DNA of 64,000 bases from Antedon bifida. Its lineage: Eukaryota > Echinodermata > Crinoidea > Comatulida > Antedonidae. Positions 4,601 through 63,843 of the stretch are shown one piece after another (position 1 is the stretch's first letter; every line of letters starts with the position of its first letter). Made by a program: the position numbers and the translations under genes. The stretch is from positions 8,680,001 to 8,744,000 of the forward strand of contig OY727102.1 of assembly GCA_963402885.1 (NCBI GenBank), read 5' to 3'. Below the pieces are notes generated by a model, which had not been told where the DNA came from, made no database searches, and was given only the letters and a program-made list of their open reading frames with translations.

Positions 4601-7600
4601 TAGTTAATTAAAACCATAATGTTATTAATTACCATTGATACAGCTTCTGCAACACTAGTGAGCAAGGCTGGTCGCAGAGAATGTAGTAACATCTTATGTT
4701 CTAATAAAACATACACTAATAGATTCATACAATTATCTGGGCCTAGGTTTCGAAGTAATGCACAGAAGGATGCCCCACTCAGAGGTATTGCTGTCATCCT
4801 AGGCTGCGTCAGTATCATTTGATCATGTGCAAGCTGTAATATAGAAAACATATTCATTTTCAAGAAATTCAAATGTTAGACTTTATTGTGGATCAGTGTA
4901 TACATATATGGACATAGCATAGCTCTATTTTATGACAGCAGAAACAGCACAAGTTTTCAATAACTGGTTAAACGGCAACCTGAAAATAACGCAATTTAGG
5001 TTTAGAACACCATTTAACCGGTTATCTCTACACAATTTTTATCTGAAACGCAAAATAACGGTTATTTGAAACAAAAGAAGAAAACTTACTGGAACTAGAA
5101 TCCTAGGTCTCTGTGGTGTTGGAAATGGAACCTCATGAATAAAGTGTGCAATATATCTGTGTAATTAAAGAAATTAAATATAAAAGATATTTGTGTAAAT
5201 CACTTGGACCAAAAAAGGCATTTAAATTAGCTTAATTAGCCGTTTGTATAATTTTTGATTAATTAATGGGAACATCTCTACAAGACGTTGAATCGTTGGA
5301 AAACACAGAATTAGCCTAGATGAGTTCCAGTTGCCTGTCGAAGTTTTGCAATGGTATCGCTAACCTGGCTAGGCCTAGGCCTGTTAGTATTAGGCTAGGC
5401 CTAGGCATGTTAGTAGTAGGCTAGGCCTAGGTGCTTTAGCCTTGCTAGGCATAGGATTATTTAGTCGTTTGTTGACATAATTAACACTACAGTAGGTGTG
5501 TTTATAAAATCCAAATAAATATAATATTTAATATATTATTAAAAACCAAATCAATGTGAATAAAATGTACGCCTAGGCCTACTATTTTCTTCAATCTGAT
5601 TCAAATGATAGGAATCTATTTAGATGTTATATAAAACAAATAATGAATGTTTTATATTCGCCTCGTTGAAATATAACCTTTCATCATTCACCTCATGCCA
5701 TTTTTTGTACCATTACACTCATAAACATTCATTATTTGTATACTGTTTAGTGTATTCTTGCCATTTGATTGATTAAGTATCATGTGCTAAATATATATAT
5801 AATGGTGATAATAACAATGATCATGTTTTTGTAAACACGTAAAGAATTTGCTGCCATGCAAGGTAAATCGTCATCGAAAATCAACCTGTATTGTGTGCCG
5901 TCTATAACTGATCTATTTTGGATCCAAAATTGAAGCAGCGGATTACTTGAATAAAAGTTATAGCAGCTGTGTTATTATACAGATATTGACTGCTTAGAGG
6001 TGTATTATAACATTTGAGATCTTCCAATTATTTTTTTCTTGAGGGAAAATATAGTCCTGGACCTGGTTACAAAATTTGGTGAAAATTAGGAAGATGAATT
6101 AATACATTCTTGTCTCTAAACATTTAAAACTAACCTTTCAATTGGTATTTCATGAGGGCCCGATATTGACAAACGGTATAAAAATGAAAGAAACTTCTTA
6201 AATGGATCAAAGAAAGGCCAACGAGAAAGTAGACAGACAGCCTTATTTGTATTGATACTATAACCATCTTCTTTCTTTTGCTTTATGTTCAAGGCTACTG
6301 CTTGTTGAGGTGTAAGGCTTTCTTCTGGGTAACTTTCATAAAATGTAACAGCAGCACCATATATCTAAAGGAAGAAATGCTAAAATCAATCAATTGCTGA
6401 AATTTCCACTTGGATTGAGAAGAATAGCAAGTGTTTGTTGTGGTTCCACTTAGGGGGCAACTCTATGACGTAGCGACACAAAGTGTCTTAATAAAATAAC
6501 CTTGTATATCACAGGTTGGAACCGAAAAACATAAGCAGATGCAACCGTGTGGAAATGATCTTTTACGCCGCTTAAGTCAGTCTACAGAAAATCAAATCAG
6601 TTTGAATTCAAGTAACAACGTAAGGCAAATTGAAACGTCGCAAACATACGTATTTAATTACTGGTTTAACGTAAACAATTGTATACAAATAAAAGTGTTA
6701 AAATTTGAAGAGCGGATTCAGCTTGTACAGTATGGTATATTTACTAATGTGTGTTCGCATGAATTGTTGTATAAGCGTTAAACCATACCTTTTCACCAGA
6801 GCTATCAGTAAGAATGAATGTTGAGAACACTGGTAATGGATGCATTCTATCCTTAGCCCAGCATTCAATCACAGCACCCATGGGTAGGCAAAACCTTGCC
6901 ACAGAATCTGGCAGGTTGAACGATTCATGGTCTTCTAATGGATATCGACTCAATGTTTCTAGAAAAGAACAAGTTATTGGCAGATTTTTAATCATTGAAT
7001 AATAATTTACAAATAATGAAAGTTTAATAGTTAGATGGTGAAAATATTTCCCGAGTTGAAACATTGACTGTCATGAGTTGAAAAATAGACTATTTTCAAC
7101 TCGGCTGGGGCTAATTCCAAATGACATGTGATGCGTAATTAAACAATCAAATTGCAAGGATACAGTCAGATATGTTATATAATATAAATAGAACTATATA
7201 AAATATATTATTCAAACTTTATGTGTAGTTTGTAGTGTTTCTTATTTCATAATTGTCAACTTAACTAATAACTTGTAAATTGTATTTTAAGACCACTTAT
7301 ATTGATCATTACACAATAAACCAATATTTAATAACGACTAAAAAAAAAGAGGTTGACACAATTTTTACCTGCTTGACACGTAACTGAATCACTTTTTATA
7401 GCCGATTTCTTGTAGCACATGTAAACATCTGATCCAACCACTGCACCTTTGTTTAAATTCTTGTTAATTTTACAAAATGCATGCGGGGGTGATTCTCCCT
7501 ATATAAATGAAAAATAAACTTATTATTTGTACCAAATTCAAATAAAGAATATTAAGTAGCTAATAAAAATTGGAAACATATAAAATTGTTTGATCTTTTT

Positions 7601-22703: not shown

Positions 22704-23582
22704 AAGTATTCAACCAGTACTGTACATGTACAGTATTCAACCAGTACTGTACATGTACAGTATTCAATCAGTACTGTACATGGACAGTATTCAATCAGTA
22801 CTGTACATGGACAGTATTCAATCAGTACTGTACATGGACAGTATTCAATCAGTACTGTACATGGACAGTATGGACAGTATTCAATCAGTACTGTACATGG
22901 ACAGTATTTAACCAATACTGCACATGGACAGTATTCAATCAGTACTGTACATGGATAGTATTTAATCAATACTGTACATGGACAGTATTCAATCAGTACT
23001 GTACATGGACATTATTTAACCAATACTGCACATGGACATTATTTAATCAGTACTGTACATGGACAGTATTCAATCAATATTGTACATGGACAGTATTCAA
23101 TCAGTACTGTACATGGACAGTATTCAATCAGTACTGTACATGGACAGTATTCAATCAGTACTGTACATGGACAGTATTCAATCAGTACTGTACATGGACA
23201 GTATTCAATCAGTACTGTACATGGACAGTATCAGTACTGTACATGGACAGTATTCAATCAGTACTGTACATGGACCGTATTCAATCAGTACTGTACATGG
23301 ACAGTATTCAATCAGTACTGTACATGGACAGTATCAGTACTGTACATGGACAGTATTCAATCAGTACTGTACATGGACAGTATCAGTACTGTACATGGAC
23401 AGTATTCAATCAGTACTGTACATGGACAGTATCAGTACTGTACATGGACAGTATTCAATCAGTACTGTACATGGACCGTATTCAATCAGTACTGCACATG
23501 GACAGTATTCAATCAGTACTGTACATGGACAGTATCAGTACTGTACATGGACAGTATTTAATCAGTACTGTACATGGACAGT
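22704..23582. repeat. Minisatellite, 27-bp unit with 22-bp variants
   Basis: The unit CAGTATTCAATCAGTACTGT then ACATGGA is repeated a little over thirty times. Some units are shortened to CAGTATCAGTACTGTACATG-GA (22 bp). The first two units carry ACATGTACAG and the rest ACATGGACAG. Because 27 is divisible by three and the unit lacks stops in several frames, long spurious open frames appear on both strands. These have no initiation context or flanking exons and I do not call them genes. Confidence 0.9.
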
Positions 23583-38756: not shown

Positions 38757-39885
38757 TCAACACGAATACGCTTTACAATATGAAATGGGGATCAGCTCAA
38801 AAGTTTTACAAATGTGTGACGTATCCGTTTTCGTAAGGTTACGAAACCTCCCTACTATATTAGGGAGGTTTCGCAACCTTACGAATACGATAACGAAAAC
38901 GGATACGTCATACATTTGTGAAACTTTTGAGCTGATCCCCATTTCATATTCGTAAAGCGTATTCGTGTTGACGAATATCACCAGTCATATTCGTAACTAC
39001 AAAACGAGTATAGTTTTTTTATCTATTTTGCACATTTTGCATTTGAATTAGGAATGATTCATGATTATAATATAATTATAGATTTATTGAAAGCAATTTA
39101 CTAAAGTAATTTACTAAAATGCCAGGTCAATTTAGATAAATAGCAGTTTTCAAAGTCCTCACTCGCTTTGATGTTACGCTAGGCCTAGGCAGCCAAGCAC
39201 CAAGCAACACGTACCTGCGCTTCGCTCAAATTTACCGCAGTCATATTTTGGACGCGCCTCGATATTTCGTTGCCATGCGAAACAGATACTAGAGAGGTTT
39301 CGCAATCTTACGAATACGATAACGAAAACGGATACGTCACGCACACGTATTCGTTTTCGTAAGCCATAAAAAAATCTGTTTCGCATGGCAACGAAATATT
39401 GAGGCGCGTCCAAAATAGGACTGCGGTAAATTTGAGCGAAGCGCAGGTACGTGTTGCTTGGTGCTTGGCTGCCTAGGCCTAGCGTAACATCAAAGCGAGT
39501 GAGGACTTTAAAAACTGCTATTTATCAAAATTGACCTGGCATTTTAGTAAATTACTTTAGTAAATTACTTTCAATAAATCTATAATTATATTATAATCAT
39601 GAATCATTCCTAATTCAAATGCAAAATGTGCAAAATAGATCAAAAACTATACTCGTTTCGTAGTTACGAATATGACTGGCGATATTCGTCAACACGAATA
39701 CGCTTTACGAATATGAAATGGGGATCAGCTCAAAAGTTTCACAAATGTATGACGTATCCGTTTTCGTTATCGTATTCGTAAGGTTGCGAAACCTCCCTTT
39801 TGTTATGGCTTACGAAAACGAATACGTGTGCGTGACGTATCCGTTTTCGTTATCGTATTCGTAAGATTGCGAAACCTCTCTAATG
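38757..39885. repeat. Giant fold-back block with 420-bp arms
   Basis: The arms 38,865-39,287 and 39,371-39,796 are reverse complements with few differences, separated by an 83-bp loop. The loop itself recurs inverted at 39,798-39,885. A smaller hairpin (38,757-38,860 with 38,868-38,975) shares the left arm, so several exclusive foldings exist. The motifs GAGGTTTCGCAA, TTACGAATACGATAACGAAA and CGGATACGTCA repeat throughout. Open frames here are shadows of the palindrome. Confidence 0.9.
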
Positions 39886-41805: not shown

Positions 41806-44241
41806 TTAATCATCATACTTATACACTAGATATTCTAGCATGATCTTACAAAGTGGAAGACTATTAATATTTTTTAGCCTTGATTTCCCAATACTGGTCC
41901 TGATTACTATTCGACAGGTATCTTGCAAAGATCGAGGATTTCCTATGGATAGACAACACAAATATTGTTTTAATTGTTTTATTTCAATAATTATAACTGA
42001 GAGAATAAGTAAAAAGAGGTAATACATATACAATACCTTGAGAAGGTACTTGAATGAAAGTATGGTTGAAAGTGGAAATAAGCTACACTAGGTTAAAGGT
42101 TAAGAATTGGTGCTGTTTCTATCCACCCACAAATTTGAATTGTATATAGATTTATTTTAATAGATTTACTTATTGAAAAAGGCAAATTTTACATGAATAA
42201 AATACTTTACTCTATGAGAAAGCCGATGTTAATTCAACTTACGCGCTATATCTGTGAGGTATTGAAGGCACAGCCTATCAACTGACGATCTTTGCCTGGC
42301 AACAGCCACAGGAGTCAATCCATCTTCATTTTTAGTCACACAATCAGCACCATATGCATATAGCAAAACACATGTACTAAGGTCATCTTTCATGGCTGCA
42401 ATATGCAATGGAGCTTGACCATCTTCGTAATGTTTTAAATTTGGATTTGCACCATGTTGCAGCAACAGTTTTGTACAATGAGAACGACCTTTCATGATGG
42501 AATACTGCAGAGGAAGGCCGACATCTGTATCGATATCTGCAGACCAATTAATAAGTAATTTAAGGCAGCTGATTCTCTCCCAGACAATGGCAAGCACCAG
42601 TGGTGTGATCTCTTCTATACTCTTAGCATTCACATCTGCGTTATGCTGCAAAAGGAGCTTAACACAAGCTGTGTGACCATTTCTGACTGCAAGATGTAAT
42701 GCGGTTAGGCCTTCCTTTCCCTTCTGATTAACCACTCCCTTTTTTGTGCGTGTTTCATCATATTCAAGGATCAACTTAGCCATGCGCGTCTTACCATTCA
42801 TTGATGCGTAGTGTAGGCATGTAAAATGAGCTATCTTGTCTGGTATACAGGGGTTACCTAAGAAAAAATATTCAAATATGACTTTTTATGTGCAGTGTTC
42901 ATAAAACAACAAATTTAAAATCTGAATTAAAAATCTTAATTATTATATTAGTGAGGTTTCGCAACACTACGAATACGATATCGAAAACAAATAAGTCACA
43001 CATTTGTGAAACTTTTTTGAGCTGATCCCCACTTTTGTGTTGATGAATATCATCAGTCATATTCGTAACTACAAAACGAGTATAGTTTTTTTTTATCTAT
43101 TTTGCACATTTTGCATTGAATCAGGAATGATTCATGATTACAATATAATATATATAACAGATTTATTGAAAGTAATTTACGAAAAGAAATTTATTAAAAA
43201 CACCAGATCAATTTTGATATAGCAGTTTTTAAAGTCCTCACTCGCTTTGATATTACACTAGGCATAGACAGCCAAGCAACATGTACATGTATAAAATGAG
43301 GAGGACCTTTTGCAATTTGGGGGGGGGGGGGGGGGATGCGCACCCGTCACACCCCCCCTGTGGTTCTTATATCTCGACAACCACATGTCATAGAGATTTG
43401 CTTTTGGGTTCAAATTTTTCAGAAAATACATATTTATATTTGATCTAACACAACTTTTAGCATAAACATGACCGGGTTTACTGACCTTTGTCCCAAAAAA
43501 CACATTTTCAGGGTAAATTATTCTTTAAAATGTCAATGGACAAACTGTATGGTATCAAATGAAAGCCCATACAATATGCTACCCACTGCTACTACCCAAC
43601 TTGTATTAAAAATGTTTAATTATTAAGCAAATTTTTTGGAAAATGTGCATAATTTAATTACTTTTTATACTTTGGTTTCTAATTAATGTGGCTGGTGTGA
43701 TGCAAGCTATGTCGGCTACACTTGTCGGTACCTTTATCAACGCATTAATGAACACAACAAGGGTATCATAGGAGAACATCTAAGAAATCATGACATCAGT
43801 CCTACTGATACAGTCAATTATTTCAAAGTTAACAAACAAAATTAACGAGAGGAGGAGCTTATCTTTTTAGTCTTTGTTATTAATTGTTTATAGTATTTCC
43901 TGTCACCCTTTGGTGCTTTGTAATTTATTCTTGATAATTGGTTCCATGATGGTTCTGAAACGTCAATTTTATTTTAAAGTTATACAGTAAACGTCTCTTA
44001 ATTCGTAATTACCATTAAATTCAAGTAATAGCCTCATCATCCTATCCCTTGAATGGTATGCTGCAACATGGAGCAGAGTCCACCCAAAACTGTCAACATT
44101 ATTTGGTGACAGTCCAATTTCTAAGATTCTTCTTACATCTTGAACTTTCAACAAGGCAACAGCAGTACGTAGCTTTTGTTCTATTTCTTTTCTTAGGCTT
44201 ATACTAAGTTGTTGACTCCTTGTTCTTATTCCATCTGCCAT
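41806..44241 (-). CDS. ASB7: Ankyrin repeat and SOCS box protein 7 (Cullin-5 E3 ligase substrate receptor), complete
   Basis: Three exons: 44013-44241, 42243-42857 and 41806-41942; phases 1 and 1 join cleanly to give 326 aa (about 318 in vertebrates as I recall). The order is an N-terminal helix, then ankyrin repeats (GLSPNNVDSFGWTLLHVAA, TCLHYASMNGKTRMAKLIL, GLTALHLAVRNGHTACVKLL, TPLVLAIVWERISCLKLLI, QAPLHIAAMKDDLSTCVLLY). A C-terminal SOCS box is encoded by the last exon. It has the elongin-BC contact SLQDTC (S/T-L-x-x-x-C), and the Cullin-5 side reads LPLC instead of the usual LPxP; ASB7 relatives are also degenerate there. The order and spacing of repeats match ASB7 rather than ASB8 or other ASBs. 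The family acts as substrate receptor in elongin-BC/Cullin-5/Rbx2 ligases. Donor gcGC|GTAAGT at 42243 is followed by an intronic stop, so the SOCS exon is needed. Intron 1 holds a fold-back copy and a Penelope-like fragment. Confidence 0.95.
42957..43290. repeat. Single-arm copy of the fold-back repeat in ASB7 intron 1
   Basis: Follows the left arm of the 38.8-39.3 kb block: GTGAGGTTTCGCAACACTAC, GAGCTGATCCCCAC, CATATTCGTAACTACAAAAC, GCACATTTTGCATT, AGTCCTCACTCGCTTTGATA and a degraded TAGGC(A)TAG block. The opposite arm is missing. Confidence 0.8.
43317..43362. repeat. Poly-G run followed by C-rich stretch
   Basis: An unbroken run of about 17 G at 43,318-43,335 is followed by GATGCGCACCCGTCACACCC and a further run of seven C. 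It could form a quadruplex or hairpin and is prone to sequencing error. Located in ASB7 intron 1. Confidence 0.6.
43687..43960 (+). pseudogene. Penelope-like element fragment (GIY-YIG endonuclease end)
   Basis: From 43,687 the plus strand reads CGWCDASYVGYTCRYLYQRI then NEHNKGIIGEHLRNHD. This fits the Cys-x-x-Cys plus YVG-YT-R start of the GIY-YIG endonuclease in Penelope-like retroelements. A stop follows at about 43,844. The downstream TGATGGTTCTGAAACGTCAA resembles the 3' end typical of that class. Truncated and inactive; located in ASB7 intron 1 on the strand opposite to the gene. Confidence 0.6.
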
Positions 44242-45565
44242 TTTAAGAATTATTACGTGCTACTGTAGCGACAGTTGGTAATTACTATAATTTGCAAATA
44301 CATCGTTAAAAGATGGATGACCTGAAAAGAAAAACATTGTGATTAAGTGACCAACAAACCACAAAGTCTAGATTGCAAACTTTTGATATTTATTTATTAA
44401 AGGGTTCAATTAAAAAGGAAATGGATTATTGGATCAAGCGAATTAAATATAGTCCAGTTATGTATTTTCGTGTGCAGATCATGGAGAAAGTGTAAACATT
44501 GTGTTTTATGTATATTTGAAGCAATTCATCTTTGACCTCTGACCTCAATTTGAATGATTTTTGCCATTTTTTACCGACATATCATATCAATTATTATGCT
44601 CAATTATCTGATGATTTAACATGCCATTTTGACAGTGCCAACAGTAGGTACGAATGATAAAAGACAACACACAATGCAAATTGTGACTTGATACTAGAGT
44701 GGAAATAGTGGTTCTTGTATTTTATTCTGTAACTACGATTTTTTTCACAAAATTCATACATCACGAGAAGTGACTAGAATTAAAACATTTTATGAGAGGT
44801 GGTCGATTATGAGAAGCGGTCCCTTATGAGAGGAGGTGATCCCTTACGAGAGGTGGGCGATTATGAGAAGCAGTCCCTTAGCAGAGATGGTGGTCATTCA
44901 ATAGAGGTGGTCGCTAACGAGGGTGGTTGCTTCTGATGTATGGTCGCTTACGAGATAGCTAAGTAATGAGATGCATTTGCACATGTTTCAGACAGATAGG
45001 TTTGTAAAATATATAATATTTTCTACATTAGCTGGCGATAGTAACTGTACATTAGCTGGGAGGCAATTTTCGTTACATTAGCTGTTAGACTGTTCTACAT
45101 TAGCTGGTGTTGATTTTTATTTACTACATAAGCTGGAGGTTTTACTACATTAGTGGTGGATTGTTCTACATTACTGGGTAGATGCATAGGCTACGCCTCC
45201 CTAGCGTATCAGCCAATAAAAAAAGTAGAAAAGCTTTCAGCGTGTCATACACGATCTAGGGTGGAAGGTCAGATCCGACATGCAATAACACTAACTGATT
45301 GAATGTCTTTGTTTTCTGATTGATAGGTGTTAATTGAGTCATCAATGTTGTTATTTTGGTAAATTTAAGTTTAATACATTGTTTGTTTTAACTGGGCGTT
45401 CGGTTTACAAAGTAATTCTATTGTTCTTGACTGAATAATTTGGTCGATATTCGGAATTGGGGGAGTCTAGTCTAGTAAGAATAGGCAATTTTTTGGGACT
45501 TTAAAAAACAGCCAGTTAAGCGTGAAAACAGGTTTCTGGGCGGTCGGTGTTGAGAGAGTTTACTG
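43985..45565. mobile_element. Possible pogo-like terminal sequences bracketing ASB7 exon 1
   Basis: TA-CAGTAAACGTCTC at 43,983-43,997 and GAGAGAGTTTACTG-TA at 45,552-45,567 face each other, each with a TA. The inner part near the right end has the degenerate GAGAGGTGGTCGCTTA repeats often seen within such elements. ASB7 exon 1 (44,013-44,241) lies between them. The match is only about 12 bases, so two unrelated element ends or chance remain possible. Confidence 0.35.
44786..45180. repeat. Two degenerate short-unit arrays
   Basis: 44,786-44,960 repeats variants of GAGAGGTGGTCGATTATGAG; 45,030-45,180 repeats TACATTAGCTGG with variable spacers. No coding sense. Confidence 0.6.
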
Positions 45566-47465: not shown

Positions 47466-48212
47466 TGAACCTCTTTAGCCAATCTAAAGAATTTACAATT
47501 GTGCAAAAAAAATCATAGATCTTTCGCAAGTTTTGCGAAAGCAGTTTGACCTTAGCGTGAGCGTAGCTTAGTCCCTTATTATATAGGGCCTAATTATCGG
47601 CTATACTATTAGTATTACTAGGCCTACTAACGCCTACTCTACTACTGTACTGGCCTAGAGGCCTACTACTATAGGACTCCTTACTATAGCGGATATAGCT
47701 ACCTAGGCCTAGTAGTAGTAGTAGGCCTAGCTCCATCTTCTCATGTCCCTTCTCATCAGACCTTCTTACTTTGTTTTATTGACTTCAAGTTGCCTTTTGA
47801 AGTCTATAAATTATCTAAAAATGCCAATATTCTAACTATTCAATATATAATTATATTATAAAGCATTCGATTATTTCAAAAATGCTATAAATATAAAGAA
47901 ATTAGGCCTACATCATACCTTTCTGTCGTCCTAAATTTGAAATTGTTCATATTGTTTGAGCTTTTTTATGACATTTCAAAATTGCGCCCCCATCGGCAAA
48001 GAAAGAATAGAAGCCTGCCCACTATATTTTATATTGGCTTTATATTTTTTAGAAGGTCGGAAATTTCAAAGAACATAGCCTACATAGCAATTCTAGAATT
48101 TTAGGACGGTAAATTTTTTAGTTTTTCTAATGTTTATCTTCTAAAAATTCCAGTTAAAGAATAATTGTTGAGTTCATTTGTGTCTACACTATATAAATAC
48201 ATATATTTGAAG

Positions 48213-51200
48213 ATGGAGAACAAAATAGTTGTTGTAGAAAAAGAAAATCAACAAACAGAAGCTGAGTCTCCTGCAAAAACTTCCCCGGTCGATTTAAGAA
48301 GATCCACTGACGAATTGAAGGACGAGGTAAAAATAAAAATGTCAACGTTGTTTAGGCCTAGCGTAGGTCCAGGACTAGCTAGGTATAGCCTAGCTAGTAG
48401 AATAACAACAGTTGCGGACAATCAATTAAAACATCTTAAAATATACTAGGCCCTAGGCCTATGTTACAATTGGCAGCCTTCTTGAATTGAGGTTGCTTAT
48501 TTTTAGCTAGGCCTAGCCTAGCTAGGCTACTGAACTGTACTGGGCCTAATATAAATGCTAAGCCTCGGGTCCTACTATTAGTACTAAACACCACCAGATA
48601 CCTACCAGAGCAACAAATCCTACCACCAGAGAGCAGCTACCGGATCAATTGATTATTAATGGTATATTACAAATTTCAAAGGGTAATTCTTTCAGAAACT
48701 GATAAAATTTAAGTTAAAAGTGAATTTCTCGCCGTTGCACTTCCAGAATCAAATGCGTTCGATCTTCATAACAGTAATGAAACGAACACGTTAATCCGTG
48801 TCTATTGTGTACAGGTATTGTATTCAGCGGTGAACTGTGAGGCGCTACCGATGCATTTATTTGGTAAAATAATTTCTTTTGTGTGCACTAATATTTATTA
48901 TTTATTTCATTCCAGACCAACAGCGAATCATCATCACTAACAAAATCTTAATAAAAGCTACTTTAGATAAAGAATTTATATCATAAAACAAGATGACATC
49001 AAAGATAGAAAAATGATATTTCAGGTTAAAAGTGATGTAAAATAATAGAATGGAAAGAAGCGATCAATATTGGTGTTATTACTTAGGGAATTATATTGTA
49101 ATTGTGAATTATATATTTAAAAATAAATAACTTATTTGTTACTCAGTCATATGCTCTCACAGCATTTATAAGATAAGATAAATCTTTATTGTCATGAACA
49201 CAACAAGGCGAACATGAAATTGGTTTTCCTTGATGCTTAAAAACACATACAATATATAAAACATTAAAAATATCAATACAATACATTAAAACTATATACA
49301 GTAGTAAACAAGTAAACAAACTATCTTTGGAATGTTGTGTTGGAAACATGAATAGAGTTGTGGACAAATGATTTCCTACGTCGAGTGGTATTGCACATTA
49401 AAGGACGAATTCTACCTGATTTATTAACAACATATTTATCATTCAATGGGTGTGAGTTATCTTCCATTATTTTCTTAACTTGGCTAATAACATCGCGCCT
49501 GTAAACTGCGTCGATAACATTCCTCCCTATTATTTTACTAGCAGTTTTTATAGTACGGTCAATTTTCTTTTTATCATTAGCACTCAGACTATTGTACCAA
49601 ACAACACAGTTGAAAGTTACAACACTAAGAATAACACTCTGGTGAAACATAAAAAGTACATCATTATTCACTCTGAAAGAGTTCAGCTTTCTGAGAAGGT
49701 ACAGCCGTTGATTAGATTTTTTAACAATATTTACAGTATTTGCATTCCAATTTAATTCACAATCTACCGTTGTTCCTAAATATTTATGTTCTTTTACAGT
49801 TTCTATCTTTTGGTCGTTTAATACAATATTATCAATAACACTTTTCTTCTTTCTGAAATCAAAAATTAATTCTTTGGTCTTATCCGCATTTAATATAAGA
49901 AAATTTTTCTTACACCACGACTCAAACAACTTAAGTGTATTTCTATACTCATCTTCACAGTATGCTGAATTATACCCGTAACAACAGAATCATCTGCATA
50001 CTTAACTATACTAACATTATTACTTTCAATTTTGAAGTCATTTGTGTAAAGAGAGAAAAGAACACATCCCTGAGGGACACCAGTGTTAGTGAAAAATAAA
50101 ATCAGAAATTCTTTTCTGTACACTATAACATTTAATAATAAATAAAACTATACAATGTTTACACACTTTTTTTTTTAATGAAACCATAGAATTGACTAGT
50201 AATGTCATTTCAGTAAATCCGACACGCCCTTCTGTCAGTGATGGTATTCTGTTTAAAGATATATTGTCCCCCTAAAAAAATATTTTTTTAAATTTTTTTG
50301 TTGAATATGTTATTTTAATGTCACATAATAGTTATTCACTCTCACAAAAAATTGGGTCTGAAAAAAATTTATTTACCTGAGAAAAATGTAATTTAAAGCA
50401 AAAAATGGTCAAATTGTCTGGAAGACAATGAGTTTTTGGTTAATTTAACTGTTTATTTTGTCTTTTTATAGGTGAAATAATTTTTCCCCCGTTTTTTTTC
50501 TTATGAAAGTGAACAACTTCATTAAAACTGCAAAATGGCCTATTCAAAGTCCGATTTTAAAAATCTTTATTTTTCATGATTTTGGGGGACAATACATCTT
50601 TAATAATGCGTGTGTCTTTTTTATCATCTCATGTATAATTATTCATACACAATCCCAATGTTATAATTTTCGATTTTCAGGTAATTATTCTTACGAAAGT
50701 CGATTATCATTTAAAATTCGTTTACGCAATCTGGAGAAAATGTACAAAGACATCTTCAAAAAAATGGTACAAAAATACAAAAGAAAATGACGTACAGAAT
50801 TAATGGAGGCTATTTTTTTCAAAACAAGGTTTAATTGGATGCGAAGATGAACTTGACTTCCAAAAAATGTCGATTTACTAAAGGAAAGAATCTTTAAAGA
50901 AAATCCTGATTTTCATAAAATACTCTATTTTGCCGCCGAAATCAAACACATGGTTGCTGTTTGATTGGAAGAAAAATTCTAGCGAGTGCATTAACAATAT
51001 ATTAAATTAGCAACTGACTGGAAAACATTAAAAGTAGCCGACCTGATTGACAAGATAAAGGATTGTGAAACAAGCCATTTTACCCTTTTGTGTGATAAAC
51101 TTCCACGTTTACTTTTATTGTATCTTATTTGTTATGTTATCGTACCGTTTTTTGCCATACGAAACATGATAAAAACATAATAACCGTAATGAAAGAAATC

Positions 51201-53098
51201 GCGCAATCGATTGGTGTATTTTTTTGTACCAATTTTTTTAAGATGTACATTTTCCTCCAGATGGCGTTTTGTTATACTGTTATGAAGATCAAATGCATTC
51301 GATTCTGGAATTGCGATGGCAAGAAATTCACTTTTAACTTTAATTTTATCAGTTTCTGAAAGAATTAAGCTTTGGAATTTGTAATATACCATTAATAATA
51401 CATTCCACACAGGTGGCTGCTCTCTGGTGGTAGGAAAAGATAGATGGCCTTGTCCAGAAAGACATGGTTATGCGTTTGAACCAGAAGAATTTGGTCAGGG
51501 GAAAGCGGCCATTTTGGGTTTCAAAATGGCCGCTTTCCCCTGACCAAATTTTTGACAACTCTTCCATTTTATGTTCTTGTGCCAAGTTTTAGAATGTTAT
51601 CACAAGTTGAAGGATTTGCCTCAAATAAGCACCTTCACATGCCTACTATTACTAAATAACTGGTCAAATAACAGATTGATCAAATACCTGAAATTAAATA
51701 ATGTCCAAATTTGTATAATAGTATAAATAAATTTAATCTTTGTTATTTTGTAAGGATATTTCACCAGAGCAAGAAGCAGAGGCAAAATTAAGAGCAAAGT
51801 ATGGAAATGTGAGAAAGCCAGGCGAACTGTTAAAGAAACGTTTACAAAAAGGAGTAAGTATAACAATTTACTAAGCAACATTGACCAATCACATGATGAA
51901 ATAGCGATGACTAGTGCATTACATGACCATCAATTGTCAACCTTAATTTTTGTTTTAAATCAACTTGGCTAAAACTATATCTTTTTAATACATAGAAAAC
52001 ATTTCTTGTTGGTATTAAAACAATGTATTAATAGATACTTATGCTTATTTGGATTAAGTACAATACCACCAGCAGGAATAACATTGTCAACAGGAAACAA
52101 ATAAAAGGAAAAATAAATAACGATAAGGGGAGGCTTTTATTCCAAATGATGTTCTATGGGGGAGTTTATTTGAATAAATATGGTACTTTTGTGATTAGTT
52201 AACTCTCTTCTACCTCTTAAAGTCATAACTATATAACTTTGATATAACTGTGATAGGTTTGAGATGTACAGTACATCTGATATAACTTCCATTCCGGTTG
52301 TTTTAAAAATGTAACAATGTTCAAGCTGCAGCGATTTTTTTGCGTTTGAAATTAAACCTTGATATAAGTCAATTTGCTCTGACTCTTCATAGTTTGTTTT
52401 TTTTTTTCGAAATTGCCTTGTCTTCATCTAACCTTAAATGGCTGTGATTGATTGCCAAAATAGAACTTGACTGCCCTCTCTAGTGCTTGTACCATTTAAC
52501 CTTAAATGACTGATTGATCACCAAACAAATGAATTCCAACATTGAAATTACAACAATTTATGATCCCTTGAAATTTTGAATTGAATCTAAAAATTTGGGA
52601 AGTGACTCATGTTGAATGGAACTGAGTAAAATTGACAATCAATCTGCATGTCCCAGTTGCTTGACACCTACACACAATGCAGTACTATACTATTAAGTTA
52701 ATTATGCCCAGTTAAACTGAGAGTTGGTTACTAATAATGCAACTGGACTAATATTAATTTTAATCATTACTCAATTTTCAAAATTGCCTTAGTAAAAGTC
52801 CCTTTTGATTGAGCTGCAAAACTTGCCCAGACGTCTAGTACTGCAACTCAAGTTACTTACAGTAAATATATTGTCCTTTGAATAAATATTAAATATGCTT
52901 CATTTTTTTTATCATTTACAGAATAGATTTTTTGATTCTGGAGATTACATGATGGCTAAACAGAACCAACAGAAAGTGAGACCAGGAAGGCGAATGCAAC
53001 CTGAACTAGTAGTAGGAGGAATGATCCCTACACCCGCGTTGCTCCCACAACGTAAACCGTCGGGGGGTAAAAGCAAACTTGCCGCGTTGGACAGTTAG
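48213..53098 (+). CDS. ENSA: Alpha-endosulfine/ARPP19 family PP2A-B55 inhibitor, complete
   Basis: Three exons: 48213-48326, 51755-51853 and 52922-53098, all joined in phase 0, give 129 aa. Landmarks are EAEAKLRAKYGN and KRLQKG in exon 2; exon 3 has the family signature FDSGDYMMAK with the Greatwall target serine at residue 77. A C-terminal IPTPALLPQRKPS places the protein-kinase-A-type serine at residue 118. In known members, phosphorylation of FDSGDY turns the protein into a tight inhibitor of PP2A-B55, allowing mitotic entry. The N-terminal 38 residues are acidic and variable, as usual. The start ATG at 48213 has a favourable GAAGATGG context. An in-frame ATG at 48165 would add a hydrophobic leader not seen in the family, so I chose 48213. 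Vertebrates have two paralogues (ENSA, ARPP19); here one gene probably represents both. Intron 1 (3.4 kb) is mostly transposon. Confidence 0.95.
49168..50092 (-). pseudogene. 5'-truncated non-LTR retrotransposon, reverse transcriptase C-terminal part
   Basis: On the minus strand, GVPQGCVLFSLYTNDF is followed by the catalytic KYADDSV (about 50,000). After a frame change comes ILNADKTKELIFDF, HKYLGTTVDCELNWN, LRKLNSFRV and NRHF-like sequence to about 49,321. The order is that of Jockey/CR1-type elements. The GVPQGCVL-SPL region has a small deletion and the two parts are out of frame, so it is inactive. The 3' end carries an AATAAAGATTTATCTTATCT tail. The matching point in element A (35,385) is unoccupied. 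Confidence 0.8.
50253..50603. mobile_element. TTAA-flanked MITE with a documented empty site
   Basis: TTAAAGATATATTGTCCCCC at the left and GGGGGACAATACATCTTTAA at the right. The paralogous element A reads ATTCTGTTTAATAATGCG at 37,181-37,198, with one TTAA at exactly this place, against TTAA on both sides here. Confidence 0.9.
51488..51550. repeat. Perfect 29-bp-arm hairpin in endosulfine intron 1
   Basis: AATTTGGTCAGGGGAAAGCG then GCCATTTTG, a five-base loop GGTTT, then the exact reverse complement. It sits about 50 bp past element B and 200 bp before exon 2. The GC content of the arms is higher than the surroundings. Confidence 0.85.
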
Positions 53099-56494: not shown

Positions 56495-57564
56495 ACCAGG
56501 GGTGGTCGCAGAACTATTTTAAGGGTGTTGCCCAAGAGTCCAGGGCCATAATAGAAACCAAATATTTGCGCCACATTTGTTAAATGACACCTTTAGGTGG
56601 CCGGAAATGGTACACTCGCACGTAAAATTCACGCCGGAAATGACACTCTAATATATATCAGCAGTATTTATCCCACCTATTTTTTCCGCCAGTAAAACAC
56701 ACGCGACTAAGGATAACATTTTTTTGCGTTCAGTTCCCGACTAATACAAATTAATTACTAGGCCTATTAATTAATAATTTTAAAAAGTTAGACAAAAATG
56801 CTATAAATATATTGAGCAAAACTTTGAATTGTATTATTTTGAAATAAATGCTGAATAAGTCAGTAAAACTGTGTTGCTTAAAACACACTCTAGAAAAGAA
56901 AATATGATCGAAATTTGCAGAAAGAAGCAATTAAACACCGTTATTTCAAAGTTCGCCACGTCCGTAATTACTACGGAAACTCGGCCAAATTTTACGGACG
57001 TGGAAAACGGAAAAAAAATCCTAATCCGCTGACCGCCGTTAAATTGTGCGCGGTTAATTTTACGCTGCAGTCAATCAATTTGGATCAAGTCAGTATGGCT
57101 TAATTTGATAATTCAAATTTTGCTGAATTTTGTTTTTAATAATGCTAAAACATCCAATGTTAATAAACTTTTTTAAAGAGAAATTAATGTATTTCTTGAG
57201 TTCTTTTAGATTTATTATTATTCATTTTCTGTTTCAACATCATCATCTATTTTTCTAGTGGATATTGAATAAATATAATAGTGTATGTATGTATAATATG
57301 TATAGTGTATCACATCATCACCATGGTCATATTCAACCTCATCAGCATTAACTGGTAAAATTTGTAGTCTCAGATGTGAAAGCAAATAATAAACGCAAAG
57401 GCAATATTTTGAAAATCTTTGAAATCTTATATTTTTAAACATTTGATATAATATGAGACATAATATGTATCATTCTGGTTAAAAAATATAATATATAGTT
57501 ATAAAATCCAATGGTTTTGCAGTAATATTGATAAGTAGTTGATTCTGTATAATATTGCACTTGA

Positions 57565-60500
57565 TTAGTATTTGTAGCATAACAATGCAGAGAGGAACCT
57601 GTGGCGTGAAGTATTGTGAACAAGATCAATTCTGCCTTCATCATTTGCCGCAAGTTCACTGACATTGCTGGCGTCATTGGCACTGACTTCATTGGCACTG
57701 GCGTCATTGGCACTGGCATCATTGGCACTGGCATCTGTGCTGTCGATATCTTCACCGGTAGTATCCTGGATTTCCTCTGTCAGTGTTTTGAGGCAACTGA
57801 TATTACGAATGCCTCGTCTAAGTCTGCGGAAAAGCCGCCTGAAAATTCCTGCTCGTGGTACATCTGTAGAATTCTGGTTAGCAGGGACATCACCAGCCAA
57901 ATTGTCTGTAAGGAATAAATGCAATGTTTGTTTTTAATAATATAGTACTATTTGTATTACTAATTAAAACAACATAATAAAATGCATGTTTATTTTTATG
58001 TAATAAAATAAATCACCTTCGCTTGGCTTGCAGGTTGAAACGTCGTTTTCGAAAGTCTTACTATCCTTTTCATCTACCTTGTCCATGGCGATGACATAAC
58101 TGCTGTAGCGAATAATTTCAGCGACATACTGTCTGACTGCATTGATGTCAATCTCAACATCAGGGATGGGGTCATCAATTTCAACATCAAGGATGGTGTT
58201 GTAAATCTTGCCATCGGTGAGAGTGTCATCAATCTTGGGATCAGAGGCAGTTTCGTCAATCTTGGCGTTTGAGACGGTTAAGGTAATCTTGGCATCAGAG
58301 AGGGTGTCAACAATCTCGACATCAGACACAGTGTCGTCAATATTAATGTCAGAGATGGTGTTGTCAATCAAGGTGTTGGTTACATCGACAGTCTTCATGC
58401 TTGTTGAGATAATGCCGGAGATGTACTCATCCACGGCATTTTTGTCAATTTCTCCAATGTAATCCTTCACTTTTGTAGTGACTGCGACGGCATCTGGGGT
58501 ACTATCGTCAAGGAACATGTTATTGTCGAAGACTTCAATGGCTGCAGCTGCTGCCTTGGTGGTGACATCCAGGTCACTGACCTTTCTTATGCTTTCTACA
58601 TCTTGCACATGATTCTTAATATCTTCAGAACCACTGATGCATTGAGGTTCATTAAAAATGTCATTCAAGTCTGTAAAATGCAAACATTGTGTGACATTTT
58701 GTACATTATTACATCCATGTAAGGTTTTTAAAAAAACTTGTCAAAATAAGAGAAATAATTAGATTGATTGTAATAAGTACCTGAAAGTGCATCATAAAAT
58801 ATCTCATCCTCATCGTCGCTCCAATCCAATCCACTGTTGTCCTGCATAAAGTTCTGGGTCATATTTTTTACATATGCACTTCTTGTTTTGGTGTTGCCAA
58901 GGAGTTTCGCCCAGCCGATTATTTTGGGTGGCTTTTTCAACTTGTCCTCTTTTACAATATTGTCATCACCTTGGATTAAATGCGCCATCTTTTTTACACT
59001 TTTCTTCGCTGGTTTTGGTGCAACTGGTGGCTTAATATGATGAAACTTGTCCTCTTTTACAATATTGTCATCATCTTGGATTGAATGCGCCATCTTTTTT
59101 ACACTAGATTGATTGTAATAAGTACCTGAAAGTGCATCATAAAATATCTCATCCTCATCATCGCTCTCATCACCAGCAAGTGATGGTTTTGACTTATTCG
59201 GCATATCTTCAACCTTTTTATAAACAAAACTATCTGCCATATTTCGAGTTGATTTTCGTGTAACTGGGATGTCTTCAACATGAGAAGCCTGTAAAATTAA
59301 ACGATGAATATGGGTATAATTAAAGCAGCTTACAGTACTAAAAAATGTCCATGTTCTTCTTAGAAAATAATCGTTAATTGTTTACCATACAACAATGTAA
59401 TTACATATACACTATGTAAAATTACTTGTAAAATGTATATACAATTCATAAAACAGTCAAATGAGGCATTAAAAAATAAACTTTAGGATATGGCCACCAG
59501 TTGAGAAAAATCATGATGATTGTGAGAGATGCACTAAATCCTGTGAATAACAGACAAAAAAAGAAATTGCATTATTGTATGTCCGTACAGTACCTGTCTA
59601 TTTACCTGCATTAAGTTCTGTGTCATATTTTTCACAGATGCACCTCTTGTTTTGGTGTTGCCAAGGAGTTTCGCCCAGCCGATTATTTTGGGTGGCTTTT
59701 TTAACTTGTCCTCTTTTACAATATTGCCATCACCTTGGATTGAATGACCCATCTTTTTTACATTTTTCTTTGCTGGTTTTGGTGCAACTGGTGGCTTAAT
59801 CTGATGAAACTTGTCCTCTTTTACAATATTGCCATCACCTTGGATTGAATGCGCCATCTTTTTTGCACTTTTCTTTGATGGTTTTGGTGCAACTGGTGGC
59901 TTAATCTGATGCAACTTGTCCCCTTTTACAATATTGCCATCATGGATTGAATAAGCCATCATTCTTACACTTTTCTTCGCTGGTTTTGGTGCAACTGGTG
60001 GCTTAATCTGATGTAACTTGTCCTCTTTTACAATATTGCCATCATGGATTGAATAAGCCATCATTTTTACACTTTTCTTCGCTGGTTTTGGTGCAACTGG
60101 TGGCTTAATCCTGTGCTGAGGACGTTCAACCTTTGGCTTGACTGCCAAATCATTGATGCTGGTCTTTGTAGCATCGTTTTCTTGTGCCTTTGTCTTCCCA
60201 CTGAAACTCGATATTGGTTTTAGTCCTTGGATGACAGGCCCGAACGTTTCGTTGACAATTATGTCTGCAAACATTTAAAAAGGATAAGTACACTGTAAAG
60301 CTACCTAGGCAATTTATCTTCTGGCCACACACAATGAATATAGGTCTATCCTAATGATGGGTGAATATTTTCACAGTGAAGACATTTATCGTGTCCAAAA
60401 AAAAAAAAAAATGTCATTCATTTCAACTATTATTTCTATTTATATAAAAAGTTTCTAAAAGATTTCTCCACTCACCACGGTTCGTTGGAACCTTTTCCAT
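57565..60500 (-). CDS. Unrecognised repeat protein with PPVAPKP motifs, copy 1 of a tandem pair, complete (728 aa)
   Basis: Five exons in transcript order: 60476-60500 (starts MEKVPTNR), 59606-60264, 58781-59288, 58017-58670, 57565-57905. All have GT/AG borders and continuous phases; the stop is TAA. I do not recognise the family. Exon 2 has four 34-35-residue repeats, each with IKPPVAPKPAKK and GNIVKEDK, ending KKPPKIIGWAKLLGNTKTR. Exon 3 has two EDEIFYDALS acidic motifs, further repeats and a second KIIGWAKLLGNTKTR. Exon 4 is acidic, with eight nine-residue units such as DTVSDVEIV. Exon 5 has a cationic stretch GIFRRLFRRLRRGIRN and DASAN repeats. No signal peptide or membrane segment is evident, so it is probably intracellular. 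PPVAPKP followed by lysines resembles SH3 ligands, suggesting a scaffold or adaptor (inference). A polyadenylation-like AATAAA lies at 57211-57216 on the minus strand. Confidence 0.8.
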
Positions 60501-62102
60501 TGTTTGTACGCAATAACTTAATTAAATTGATAATAATCACAAAGATAATTCGGAATTTATCGCTCAGTATTTCATACACAGTTGATATATCAAGCTGTAG
60601 ATGATTTGTGTTGTTAAGTTGCTATAGCTAGCTGTTGTGATGGATACCTAGCGCGCAATTATGCTACCATGCGACGCGATGAACGCGTTGCGCGGTAAGC
60701 TAACAGGGGCGGTCGCAGGACTATTTTAATTAAGGGTGTTGCCCAAGAGTCCAGGGCCATAATAGAAACCAAATATTTGCGCCACATTTGTTAAATGACA
60801 CCTTTAGGTGGCCGGAAATGGTACACTCGCACGTAAAATTCACGCCGGAAATGACACTCTAATATCTATCAGCAGTATTTATCCCACCTATTTTTTCCGC
60901 CAGTAAAACACACGCGACTAAGGATAACATTTTTTGCGTTCAATGTAAACATCAGAGGAAGTCCCCGACTAATACAAATTAATTACTAGGCCTATTAATT
61001 AATAATTTAAAAAATGTGAAGCTGCTGCTATAAATATATTGAGCAAAACTTTGAATTGTATTATTTTGAAATAAATGCTGAATAAGTCAGTAAAACTGTG
61101 TTGCTTAAAACACACTCCAGAAAAGAAAATATGATCGAAATTTGCAGAAAGAAGCAATTAAACACCGTTATTTCAAAGTTCGCAACGTCCGTAATTACTA
61201 CGGAAACTCGGCCCAATTTTACGGACGTGGAAAACGGAAAAAAAAAATCCACTGACCGCCGTTAAATTGTGCGCGGTTAATTTTACGCTGCAGTCAATCA
61301 ATTTGCATAATAGACTTTTCCAACCCTGGACTTCTATAACGTTAATGGTTAATATATATGATGAAATGGGATCTAAATTTTAATTTAGTGGCAGAAAAAA
61401 ACATTTAGTATGAAATTAAGGGTGTTGCCCGGGCAACTATCTAAAGGAAATATCCTAAAATAAAAAATAAGAAATTCCTATCTAACTGAATATCCCTTAA
61501 GTGAAATCCATATATTTATTGACTTAAGTGAAATATCTTGGTTAAGTGTATTTCAATTATTGCATCATAAATTATGCAAATCATGATTCGTTGGATCAAG
61601 TCAGTATGGCTTAATTTGATAATTCAAATTTTGATGAATTTTGTTTTTAATAATGAATTAATTTGCTAAAACATCCAATGTTAATAAACTTTTTTAAAGA
61701 GAAATTAATGTATTTCTTGAGTTCTTTTAGATTTATTATTATTCATTTTCTGTTTCAACATCATCATCTATTTTTCTAGTGGATATTGAATAAATATAAT
61801 AGTGTATGTATGTATAATATGTATAGTGTATCACATCATCACCATGGTCATATTCAACCTCATCAGCATTAACTGGTAAAATTTGTAGTCTCAGATGTGA
61901 ATGAACATTGAACATGAAGGCAAATAATAAACGCAAAGGCAATATTTTGAAAATCTTTGAAATCTTATATTTGTAAACATTTGATATAATATGAGACATA
62001 ATATGTATCATTCTGGTTAAAAAATATAATATATAGTTATAAAATCCAATGGTTTTGCAGTAATATTGATAAGTAGTTGATTCTGTATAATATTGCACTT
62101 GA
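60501..62102. other. Spacer between the two duplicated genes
   Basis: The first ~200 bases form the 5' flank of copy 1; no TATA box is obvious. From 60,705 this is the downstream flank of copy 2: a hAT-like remnant, then AT-rich sequence with a short inverted pair CACGTCCGTAA / TTACGGACGTG near 61,184-61,231, then the 285-base copy-specific segment. Long open frames on the minus strand here (rich in MPVPMTPV) are an alternative frame of exon 5 and its 3' untranslated region. Confidence 0.5.
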
Positions 62103-63843
62103 TTAGTGTTTGTAGCATAACAATGCAGAGAGGAACCTGTGGCGTGAAGTATTGTGAACAAGATCAATTCTGCCTTCATCATTTGCCGCAAGTTCACTGA
62201 CATTGCTGGCGTCATTGGCACTGACTTCATTGGCACTGGCGTCATTGGCACTGGCATCATTGGCACTGGCGTCATTGGCACTGGCATCATTGGCACTGGC
62301 ATCTGTGCTGTCGATATCTTCACCGGTAGTATCCTGGATTTCCTCTGTCAGTGTTTTGAGGCAACTGATATTACGAATGCCTCGTCTAAGTCTGCGGAAA
62401 AGCCGCCTGAAAATTCCTGCTCGTGGTACATCTGTAGAATTCTGGTTAGCAGGGACATCACCAGCCAAATTGTCTGTAAGGAATAAATGCAATGTTTGTT
62501 TTTAATAATATAGTACTATTTGTATTACTAATTAAAACAACATAATAAAATGCATGTTTATTTTTATGTAATAAAATAAATCACCTTCGCTTGGCTTGCA
62601 GGTTGGAACGGCATTTTCGAAAGTCTTGCTATCCTTTTCATCTGCCTCCTCCATGGCGATGACATAACTGCTGTAGCGAATAATTTCAGCGACATACTGT
62701 CTGACTGCATTGATGTCAATCTCAACATCAGGGATGGGGTCATCAATTTCAACATCAAGGATGGTGTTGTAAATCTTGCCATCGGTGAGAGTGTCATCAA
62801 TCTTGGGATCAGAGGCAGTTTCGTCAATCTTTGAGACGGTTAAGGTAATCTTGGCATCGGAGAGGGTGTCAACAATCTCGACATCAGACACAGTGTCGTC
62901 AATATTAATGTCAGAGATGGTGTTGTCAATCAAGGTGTTGGTTACATCGACAGTCTTCATGCTGGTTGAGATAATGCCGGAGATGTACTCATCCACGGCA
63001 TTTTTGTCAATTTCTCCAATGTAATCCTTCACTTTTGTAGTGACTGCGACGGCATCTGGGGTACTATCGTCAAGGAACATGTTATTGTCGAAGACTTCAA
63101 TGGCTGCAGCTGCTGCCTTGGTGGTGACATCCAGGTCACTGACCTTTCTTATGCTTTCTACATCTTGCACATGATTCTTAATATCTTCAGAACCACTGAT
63201 GCATTGAGGTTCATTAAAAATGTCATTCAAGTCTGTAAAATGCAAACATTGTGTGACATTTTGTACATTATTACATCCATGTAAGGTTTTTAAAAAAACA
63301 AAAATAAGAGAAATAATTAGATTGATTGTAATAAGTACCTGAAAGTGCATCATAAAATATCTCATCCTCATCGTCGCTCCAATCCAATCCACTGTTGTCC
63401 TGCATAAAGTTCTGGGTCATATTTTTCACAGATGCACTTCTTGTTTTGGTGTTGCCAAGGAGTTTCGCCCAGCCGATTATTTTGGGTGGCTTTTTCAACT
63501 CCTCTTTTACAATATTGTCATCACCTTGGATTGAATGCGCCATCTTTTTTACACTTTTCTTCGCTGGTTTTGGTGAAACTGGTGGCTTAATATGATGAAA
63601 CTTGTCCTCTTTTACAATATTGTCATCATCTTGGATTGAATGCGCCATCTTTTTTACACTAGATTGATTGTAATAAGTACCTGAAAGTGCATCATAAAAT
63701 ATCTCATCCTCATCATCGCTCTCATCACCAGCAAGTGATGGTTTTGACTTATTCGGCATACCTTCAACCTTTTTATCAACAAAACTATCTGCCATATTTC
63801 GAGTTGATTTTCGTGTAACTGGGATGTCTTCAACATGAGAAGC
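62103..63843 (-). CDS. Unrecognised repeat protein, copy 2 of the tandem pair, 5' part outside window
   Basis: Exons 63339-63843, 62585-63232 and 62103-62473 correspond one to one with exons 3, 4 and 5 of the gene at 57565-60500, in the same orientation and with identical phases. The first two exons would lie beyond the right edge. Nearly all bases agree by eye. Differences preserve the frame: exon 3 is one codon shorter (KEELKKPP against KEDKLKKPP), exon 4 lacks two codons in the nine-residue repeat (SKIDET against SNAKIDET), and exon 5 has two extra DASAN units and ends YKH instead of YKY. Preservation of frame across all indels argues that both copies encode protein. Function unknown, as for copy 1. 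Confidence 0.75.

Follow-up and report, generated by a model that had tools for sequence, protein, structure and literature searches.

VAP ligands such as ORP1 carry FFAT motifs (two phenylalanines in an acidic tract), and the accessible parts of two sources describe the ORP1 motif SEDEFYDALS as binding VAPA (PMC10460453) and list the ORP1L motif as SILSED EFYDALS DS with a score of 1.5 (PMC9213790). Among duplicated genes, the primate core duplicon NPIP/LCR16a is described in the available portion of PMC7419210 as a fast-evolving multi-exon family that is interspersed over several chromosomes. Here, we report on a gene family with likenesses to both systems, which is represented by a tandem pair of minus-strand genes in a stretch of 64,000 nucleotides from the crinoid Antedon bifida (assembly GCA_963402885.1, contig OY727102.1, positions 8,680,001 to 8,744,000), referred to as the window. 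Another system for comparison is provided by the multicopy Sp185/333 (SpTransformer) genes of sea urchins, echinoderm genes in which internal repeats and mosaic modules are combined. The new family exists in multiple copies with conserved splice sites and reading frames, is composed of repeat modules and matches no known family in the searches described below. We read it as a recently spread gene family whose products would be largely disordered, VAP-docked adaptor proteins with a membrane-binding helix, an interpretation of sequence features for which we see about as much reason for belief as for doubt.

Like the known FFAT proteins, the family shows an acidic tract followed by FYDALS, with six core residues identical to those of ORP1, and it has a candidate second membrane-binding element as present in several VAP ligands. 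It differs from them by I, L or V at motif position 1, by the lack of any lipid-transfer or other known domain in our searches, and by its multicopy nature, with one or two motifs per protein that arose via exon duplication. The likeness to Sp185/333 consists in a multicopy echinoderm family with repeats and modules, whereas the new genes are set apart by description, having five exons and no signal peptide by inspection. With NPIP/LCR16a, as far as described in the same portion of PMC7419210, the family shares interspersed duplication as well as exon gain, loss and fusion, but its unit measures about 4 kb instead of 20 kb, the sequences are unrelated as far as known, and it belongs to an echinoderm; furthermore, no positive selection is shown in the echinoderm family, whose ratio of nonsynonymous to synonymous substitution rates (dN/dS) stays below 1 between clades.

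A previously unassigned, actively reshaping echinoderm gene family is thereby described together with a testable docking prediction. Fast spread and change often reflect conflict, either in the germline or in immunity, or a mobile unit, and the sharp unit ends raise the question of how genes with introns can spread when no transposase is visible. The number of possible docking motifs for the endoplasmic reticulum (ER), which is 0, 1 or 2 across the copies, offers a natural series for VAP avidity.

Gene structure and genomic distribution of the family

The original prediction had proposed two head-to-tail minus-strand genes for a modular protein, and this pair was borne out: copy A is complete with five exons, and copy B is its tandem duplicate. 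The features of the pair are as follows, given in window positions.

60500-57565, minus strand: copy A, whole gene; five exons, four GT-AG introns, coding sequence of 2187 nt, 728 amino acids (aa) plus stop
60476..60500, minus strand: copy A exon 1 (MEKVPTNR); ATG start, GTGAGT donor
59606..60264, minus strand: copy A exon 2; four IKPPVAPKP units with a period of 34-35 aa, plus KIIGWAKLLGNTKTR
58781..59288, minus strand: copy A exon 3; internal duplication, with a second copy of the donor site inside the exon
59127..59165, minus strand: copy A FFAT-like motif 1 (SDDEDE-IFYDALS); coordinates derived from the gene model
58782..58820, minus strand: copy A FFAT-like motif 2 (SDDEDE-IFYDALS); coordinates derived from the gene model
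58017..58670, minus strand: copy A exon 4; carries the nine-residue repeat array
57565..57905, minus strand: copy A exon 5; basic amphipathic helix, DASAN array and conserved C-terminus RHRFLSALLCYK
57799..57852, minus strand: copy A basic amphipathic helix AGIFRRLFRRLRRGIRNI; coordinates derived from the gene model
60501..60700, minus strand: conserved 5' block upstream of copy A (presumed promoter and 5' untranslated region); sharp outer edge at ~60699
60704..61305, minus strand: element X between copy B and copy A
56497..57082, minus strand: element X downstream of copy A; sharp outer edge ...CCCCTG
63339..63843, minus strand: copy B exon 3; two FFAT-like motifs at about 63682-63720 and 63340-63378
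62585..63232, minus strand: copy B exon 4
62103..62473, minus strand: copy B exon 5

Intron 2 of copy A is in phase 0, and the other three introns are in phase 1. The span marked at the outset (57565..63843) takes in all of copy A but just exons 3-5 of copy B, whose exons 1 and 2 were located in the genome immediately past the window end, resulting in a full copy B of 736 aa. Copy A contains IKPPVAPKP five times, EDEIFYDALS twice (one per inner copy of exon 3) and KIIGWAKLLGNTKTR twice, together with the nine-residue and DASAN arrays, in agreement with the repeat content described beforehand.

A DNA search with exon 2 against the window's own genome (315.6 Mb, 27 contigs) yielded 57 matches on seven contigs, which correspond to 26 gene copies, a count that is a lower bound by the search tool's own caveat; a protein search with exon 5 yielded at least 26 matches, with every frame open and zero stops. 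Contigs C12 and C13 carry one copy each, and the others form arrays with six and two members on C1, two on C8, six on C9, four on C10 and four, distributed over three places, on C15. The mitochondrial code of this genome is that of echinoderms (table 9): in 600 bases of COI on contig C27 (15,844 bp), AAA stands at expected Asn, ATA at expected Ile and AGR at expected Ser positions, and TGA encodes Trp. Flatworms use this code as well, but the protein resembles that of an echinoderm, and the T- and G-rich coding strand together with the few large contigs may point to a crinoid. On C1, the copies C1a2 to C1a5 (L016-L021, C1:22.873-22.933 Mb) form near-identical 8.4-kb repeats, and the C1a4 spacer has retroelement-like frames. 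Splice sites are common to the family copies, which together with open frames and frame-keeping indels identifies them as a protein-coding gene family. Exon 1 of copy A was recovered in every copy but C13, where it is masked (25 of 26), and reads ATGAAAAAG in two. Intact proteins of 444-799 aa are encoded by 18 of the 26 copies, including seven with fused exons (C8b, C9_1 to C9_6), and a single copy, C8a, is broken by our intactness rule, with a frameshift in exon 3. The rule is not applicable to the other seven copies, in which the respective site is diverged, absent or masked; among these, exon 4 contains a stop in C10_3 and a frame change in C10_4, whose exon 2 also contains a stop.

The copies of C10, C12 and C13 have an exon 3 with a single motif. 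A longer exon 3 is found in the C15 and C1 copies and in C8a, where a stretch resembling the end of exon 2 is placed after the first motif, and the GTYYNQS following this motif represents the translated start of an intron. Because the duplicated donor is kept inside exon 3, splicing might also produce a shorter form in frame. C8b and C9_2 to C9_6 show a fusion of exons 2 and 3, and repeat numbers vary freely between copies. In a tree calculated from the conserved blocks of 23 copies (C10_4, C9_1 and C1a6 were left out), the C12 copy groups with those of C10 with full local support.

The initial view of an unassigned gene family with modular repeats held up, with 26 copies on seven contigs and no clear match to a known family or a transposon protein in Pfam or among PDB sequences. 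A Pfam scan of protein A gave nothing above the cut-off (best LepB_N, E 0.11), the best PDB-sequence match of the exon 4-5 part had an E value of 1.1, and nothing below E 0.06 was obtained with alignment profiles of the C- and N-termini against PDB or with family members against Pfam. Residues 61-131, which cover two repeat units only, matched the N-terminal domain of gamma-tubulin complex component 6 (GCP6) in PDB with E values of 0.001-0.005; because two other repeat units and the reversed sequence failed to give this match, it was set aside as presumably due to chance. A search of viral contigs with exon 2 revealed no relative, and there was no match in Rfam at gathering cut-offs. Among the papers listed for FFAT motifs in echinoderms, crinoid family expansions and multicopy FFAT families, nothing similar was found.

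The FFAT-like motif and the predicted membrane-binding helix

The motif of the window, EDEIFYDALS, is the same as the ORP1 motif except for an extra I between the acidic tract and F. At least four of the six residues upstream are acids (five in the commonest tract, SDDEDE), residue -1 is always E, and the canonical positions 2-5 (aromatic, aromatic, D, A) and 7 (D, E, S or T) are represented by FYDA and S in 36/36 matches. Because position 1, canonically E or D, is occupied by the non-acidic residues I, L or V, we term the motif FFAT-like. Natural variation at position 1 includes I, and M is without effect in one motif, according to the accessible part of PMC3261905; for Plasmodium motifs, the available text of PMC13036008 gives a hydrophobic residue at position 1 in five of seven binders, with an acid always at -1. 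We used a core pattern of at least four acids, two aromatics (F or Y), D, A or C, and D, E, S or T, leaving positions 1 and 6 free. In 666,872 six-frame residues from the window and loci L009-L039, it gave 36 matches, each reading [ILV]FYDALS, compared to zero in 20,000 shuffles of protein A. Counted by exact matches, FYDALS is present twice in twelve copies, once in another twelve and not at all in two (C8b and C9_1), and it is unchanged in an exon 3 alignment of 19 copies. Matches to the MSP domain were found at three places in this genome.

Near the C-terminus, AGIFRRLFRRLRRGIRNI is predicted to form a basic amphipathic helix with a hydrophobic moment of 0.757, a value matched by 4.8e-5 of the 41,321 six-frame 18-mers of the window; these are two 18-mers because the stretch is identical in A and B. 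In the AlphaFold model of exon 5, AGIFRRLFRRLRRGIRNI is helical with low confidence. Divergent relatives of the family were recognised via the 5' block, whose initial 121 nt have 34 sites in the genome: those of all copies but the masked C13 (25 of 26), C7z and eight divergent ones. Four of the nine extra sites (C7z at 98% and the eight divergent ones) were read (L036-L039). The genes at loci L036 (C7) and L037 (C11) are divergent and encode a GFFRRLFRELRQRFRN helix and, as C-terminus, RRRFLSAFLCYKH; their last exon is ~33% identical (E 8e-11 and 2e-11 in tblastn run without composition correction), their N-terminus DTFWPVIQELK is related (E 0.004 and 0.015), and no IKPPVAPKP repeats were seen in either gene. 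Locus L038 (C7:22025001-22029900; C7z) consists of an element X end followed by the 5' block and exon 1, the later exons were not found there, and it represents a truncated copy. Locus L039 (C7b) has the 5' block with no gene recognised. From these sequences, the helix and C-terminus look like an older core, with the FFAT-like motif and the repeats as later additions, unless these were lost in the two divergent genes. The 5' block (window 60440-60700; L036, L037, L039) is conserved even next to ~33% identical genes or where no gene was recognised, and it is perhaps a strong promoter.

In the mechanism we favour, a unit consisting of the gene plus its 3' flank would have spread by tandem and interspersed duplication, and its products would probably be mostly disordered, with in-frame repeat modules that vary in number. 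The FFAT-like EDEIFYDALS would bind the MSP domain of VAP and thereby hold the protein at the ER, and the presence of one or two motifs per protein may lead to different avidities for VAP dimers between copies. Close to the C-terminus, the basic amphipathic helix would contact another, acidic membrane, and the lysine/proline repeats may serve as a flexible multivalent linker. Overall, the proteins would act as adaptors of the membrane-contact type that are recruited by VAP and whose reach and valency are set by the repeat number. The multivalent scaffold suggested in the original prediction thus survives in another form, with EDEIFYDALS resembling a VAP-binding FFAT-like motif, which had not been named there. 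The accompanying idea of SH3 binding, derived from PPVAPKP and the lysines, fared less well. SH3 ligands usually show the spacings +xxPxxP or PxxPx+, besides other ligand types; by inspection, IKPPVAPKPAKK has a PxxP core (PVAP), but P follows two residues after it and the residue three places ahead of it is not basic, leaving neither spacing.

A number of observations weigh against VAP docking and a conserved protein function. The strict FFAT pattern in the available part of PMC3261905 fails on the family motif, and the wide pattern from there matches it but also 298 of 2000 shuffles; the same text reports that H at position 1 lowered and K almost abolished targeting in one tested motif, showing that this position is not free. 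Our core pattern was devised after the motif had been seen and is blind to changes at F2 or D4, and 31 of 383 six-column windows are as unchanged as FYDALS, making its invariance notable, not unique. The motif is lost in C8b and C9_1 though their frames are otherwise open, C8a is without its second one, and no FFAT-like motif is present in the two divergent genes read (C7a and C11); these losses and absences indicate that it is not the core of the family. The AlphaFold models are poor, with a mean predicted local distance difference test score (pLDDT) of 31 for exon 4 and 52.5 for exon 5, each AlphaFold2 model being calculated from two sequences, which fits disorder without proving it. Finally, exon divergence equals or exceeds intron divergence (119/1124 vs. 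29/371 for A vs. C12, p 0.13; 100/1049 vs. 24/422 for C9_3 vs. C10_1, p 0.017), suggesting weak constraint on most of the protein.

Coding constraint, duplicated unit and alternative explanations

Copies A and B are 96% identical across 2423 columns, and with gaps ignored the identities amount to 98.6-99.7% in exons and 97.5-100% in introns. The three indels within exons 3-5 measure 3, 6 and 30 nt, all divisible by three, compared to one of eight in the introns and 3' flanks; the 30-nt indel comprises two 15-nt repeat units and therefore keeps the frame automatically. The frame-keeping of the exon indels was thus correctly recognised beforehand, but the selection deduced from it does not follow from this pair: because the introns are no more diverged than the exons, A and B alone show recency, not selection. 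The dN/dS value of 0.52 between them, which is based on 6 synonymous and 12 nonsynonymous changes in exons 3-5, likewise says nothing firm about selection.

Between A and C10_1, the gaps in exons 4-5 are multiples of three in nine of nine cases, as against two of nine in the 5' block plus introns 1, 3 and 4; several of the exon gaps are repeat units, which explains why they keep the frame. When A is compared with C12, two exon gaps (4 and 91) are singly out of step, and the exon overall is still open. For a representative sample of 10 of the 26 copies, dN/dS values of 0.54-0.67 were obtained in 21/21 pairs of C12, C10_1 or C10_3 with the seven others; these pairs are not independent, and their p values range from 0.003 (A vs. 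C12) and 0.008 (A vs. C10_1) up to 0.115. Among the remaining seven copies, dN/dS varies from 0.32 to 1.35. The family-wide dN/dS is about 0.55 with the frame kept, yet exon and intron divergence are about equal, and so the frame and a few motifs are retained while the bulk of the sequence drifts or diversifies.

The duplicated unit starts at a 5' edge that is common to all 25 copies whose 5' side is readable (TA[GA]CTTACC, or AATTACC in the C10/C12 form) and is preceded by at least five kinds of outer flank. Element X adjoins the C15, C8 and C1 copies, and beyond its CCCCTG edge each of A, C15b, C8a and C1b2 has a flank of its own; the X copies after C8b and C15c end before this edge, and X was not found in the C9, C10, C12 and C13 regions examined. 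Two arrays with both borders available share GTCT and GCCT in their outer flanks, with an extra TA in one, as noticed after the fact. No terminal inverted repeats were seen by eye when comparing the ends TAGCTTACCGCG and ...GCGACCGCCCCTG, and no transposase was recognised in the unit. Three candidate explanations of the unit were rejected: the 5' block occurs at just 34 sites and is no high-copy transposon end, the introns are retained, excluding retroposition of a spliced transcript, and the frames in the 4-kb spacers of the C1 array resemble by eye a nested retroelement instead of the unit's own transposase.

A mobile unit of another kind would suit part of these data. According to this unlikely explanation, the gene is the cargo of, or itself is, an unclassified element of 4.2-4.6 kb (without nested insertions) that extends from TA[GA]CTTACCGCG to ...CGCCCCTG and moves as DNA with its introns. 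The sharp edges on both sides before different flanks, the scattering of copies over seven contigs and a possible 4-bp target duplication represented by GTCT and GCCT are in its favour, but it is at odds with the lack of inverted repeats and of a recognised transposase, with a 5' end found at so few sites, eight of them divergent, with the absent or shortened X copies, and with the extra TA and the post hoc spotting of the duplications. Even harder to credit is a self-serving version of it, in which an intron-containing 4-kb block with precise ends and neither transposase nor inverted repeats would have a VAP-docking disordered protein as its sole product, this ER tether possibly aiding its own spread or a germline conflict. 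We also regard it as rather doubtful that an ordinary cellular gene was merely multiplied by segmental duplication in the manner of a core duplicon, with most copies drifting and the modules lacking a conserved role. Such drift would agree with the similar divergence of exons and introns, dN/dS values of 1.0-1.35 in some recent pairs, the free variation of repeat number and the occurrence of broken copies; on the other hand, 18 of the 26 copies are intact with the frame kept, dN/dS is below 1 between the deep clades, and the C-terminus and helix are kept in two genes at ~33% identity.

EDEIFYDALS might also function as a phosphotyrosine motif, either like the IxYxxL of an immunoreceptor tyrosine-based inhibitory motif (ITIM) or as an SH2/Src-family substrate with acidic surroundings, which would turn the protein into a cytosolic signalling adaptor instead of a VAP ligand. 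The ITIM consensus [ILV]xYxx[ILV] fits 36/36 instances (IFYDAL, LFYDAL and VFYDAL), the first position varies among I, L and V alone, as required of an ITIM but not of an FFAT motif, and the proline/lysine repeats would suit a signalling adaptor. This is nevertheless improbable, given that no membrane-receptor context is apparent and no long hydrophobic stretch was seen by eye, that F at -1, D/A/S after Y and four to five upstream acids are FFAT features unneeded by an ITIM, and that FYDALS is identical to the ORP1 core. The high identity of A and B would finally be expected if two haplotypes had been set in tandem during assembly, but other arrays repeat the junction of element X with the gene that is seen between B and A, and the family extends to 26 copies on seven contigs (those fetched measure 21-37 Mb), making such an artefact extremely improbable.

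Other features of the window

Two frames on the plus strand at 48165-53095 contain DSGDYMMAKQ...PQRKPSGGKSKLA and, by resemblance, presumably belong to an endosulfine/ARPP-19-type gene as its first exon and one of its later exons, while the frames at about 4000-7100 on the minus strand resemble what we take to be a DENND4-type protein. An ankyrin-repeat gene is located at 42229-44259 on the minus strand (Ank_2, E 2.7e-47 for 42229-42885), and a probable retrotransposon fragment lies at 49321-49989 on the same strand (ALKBH8_N, 8.1e-08; weak RVT_1, 0.011). The window also contains a tandem array of 33 copies of a 27-nt unit at 22705-23582 and a self-inverted repeat at 38862-39798, which aligns over 944 columns at 93%.

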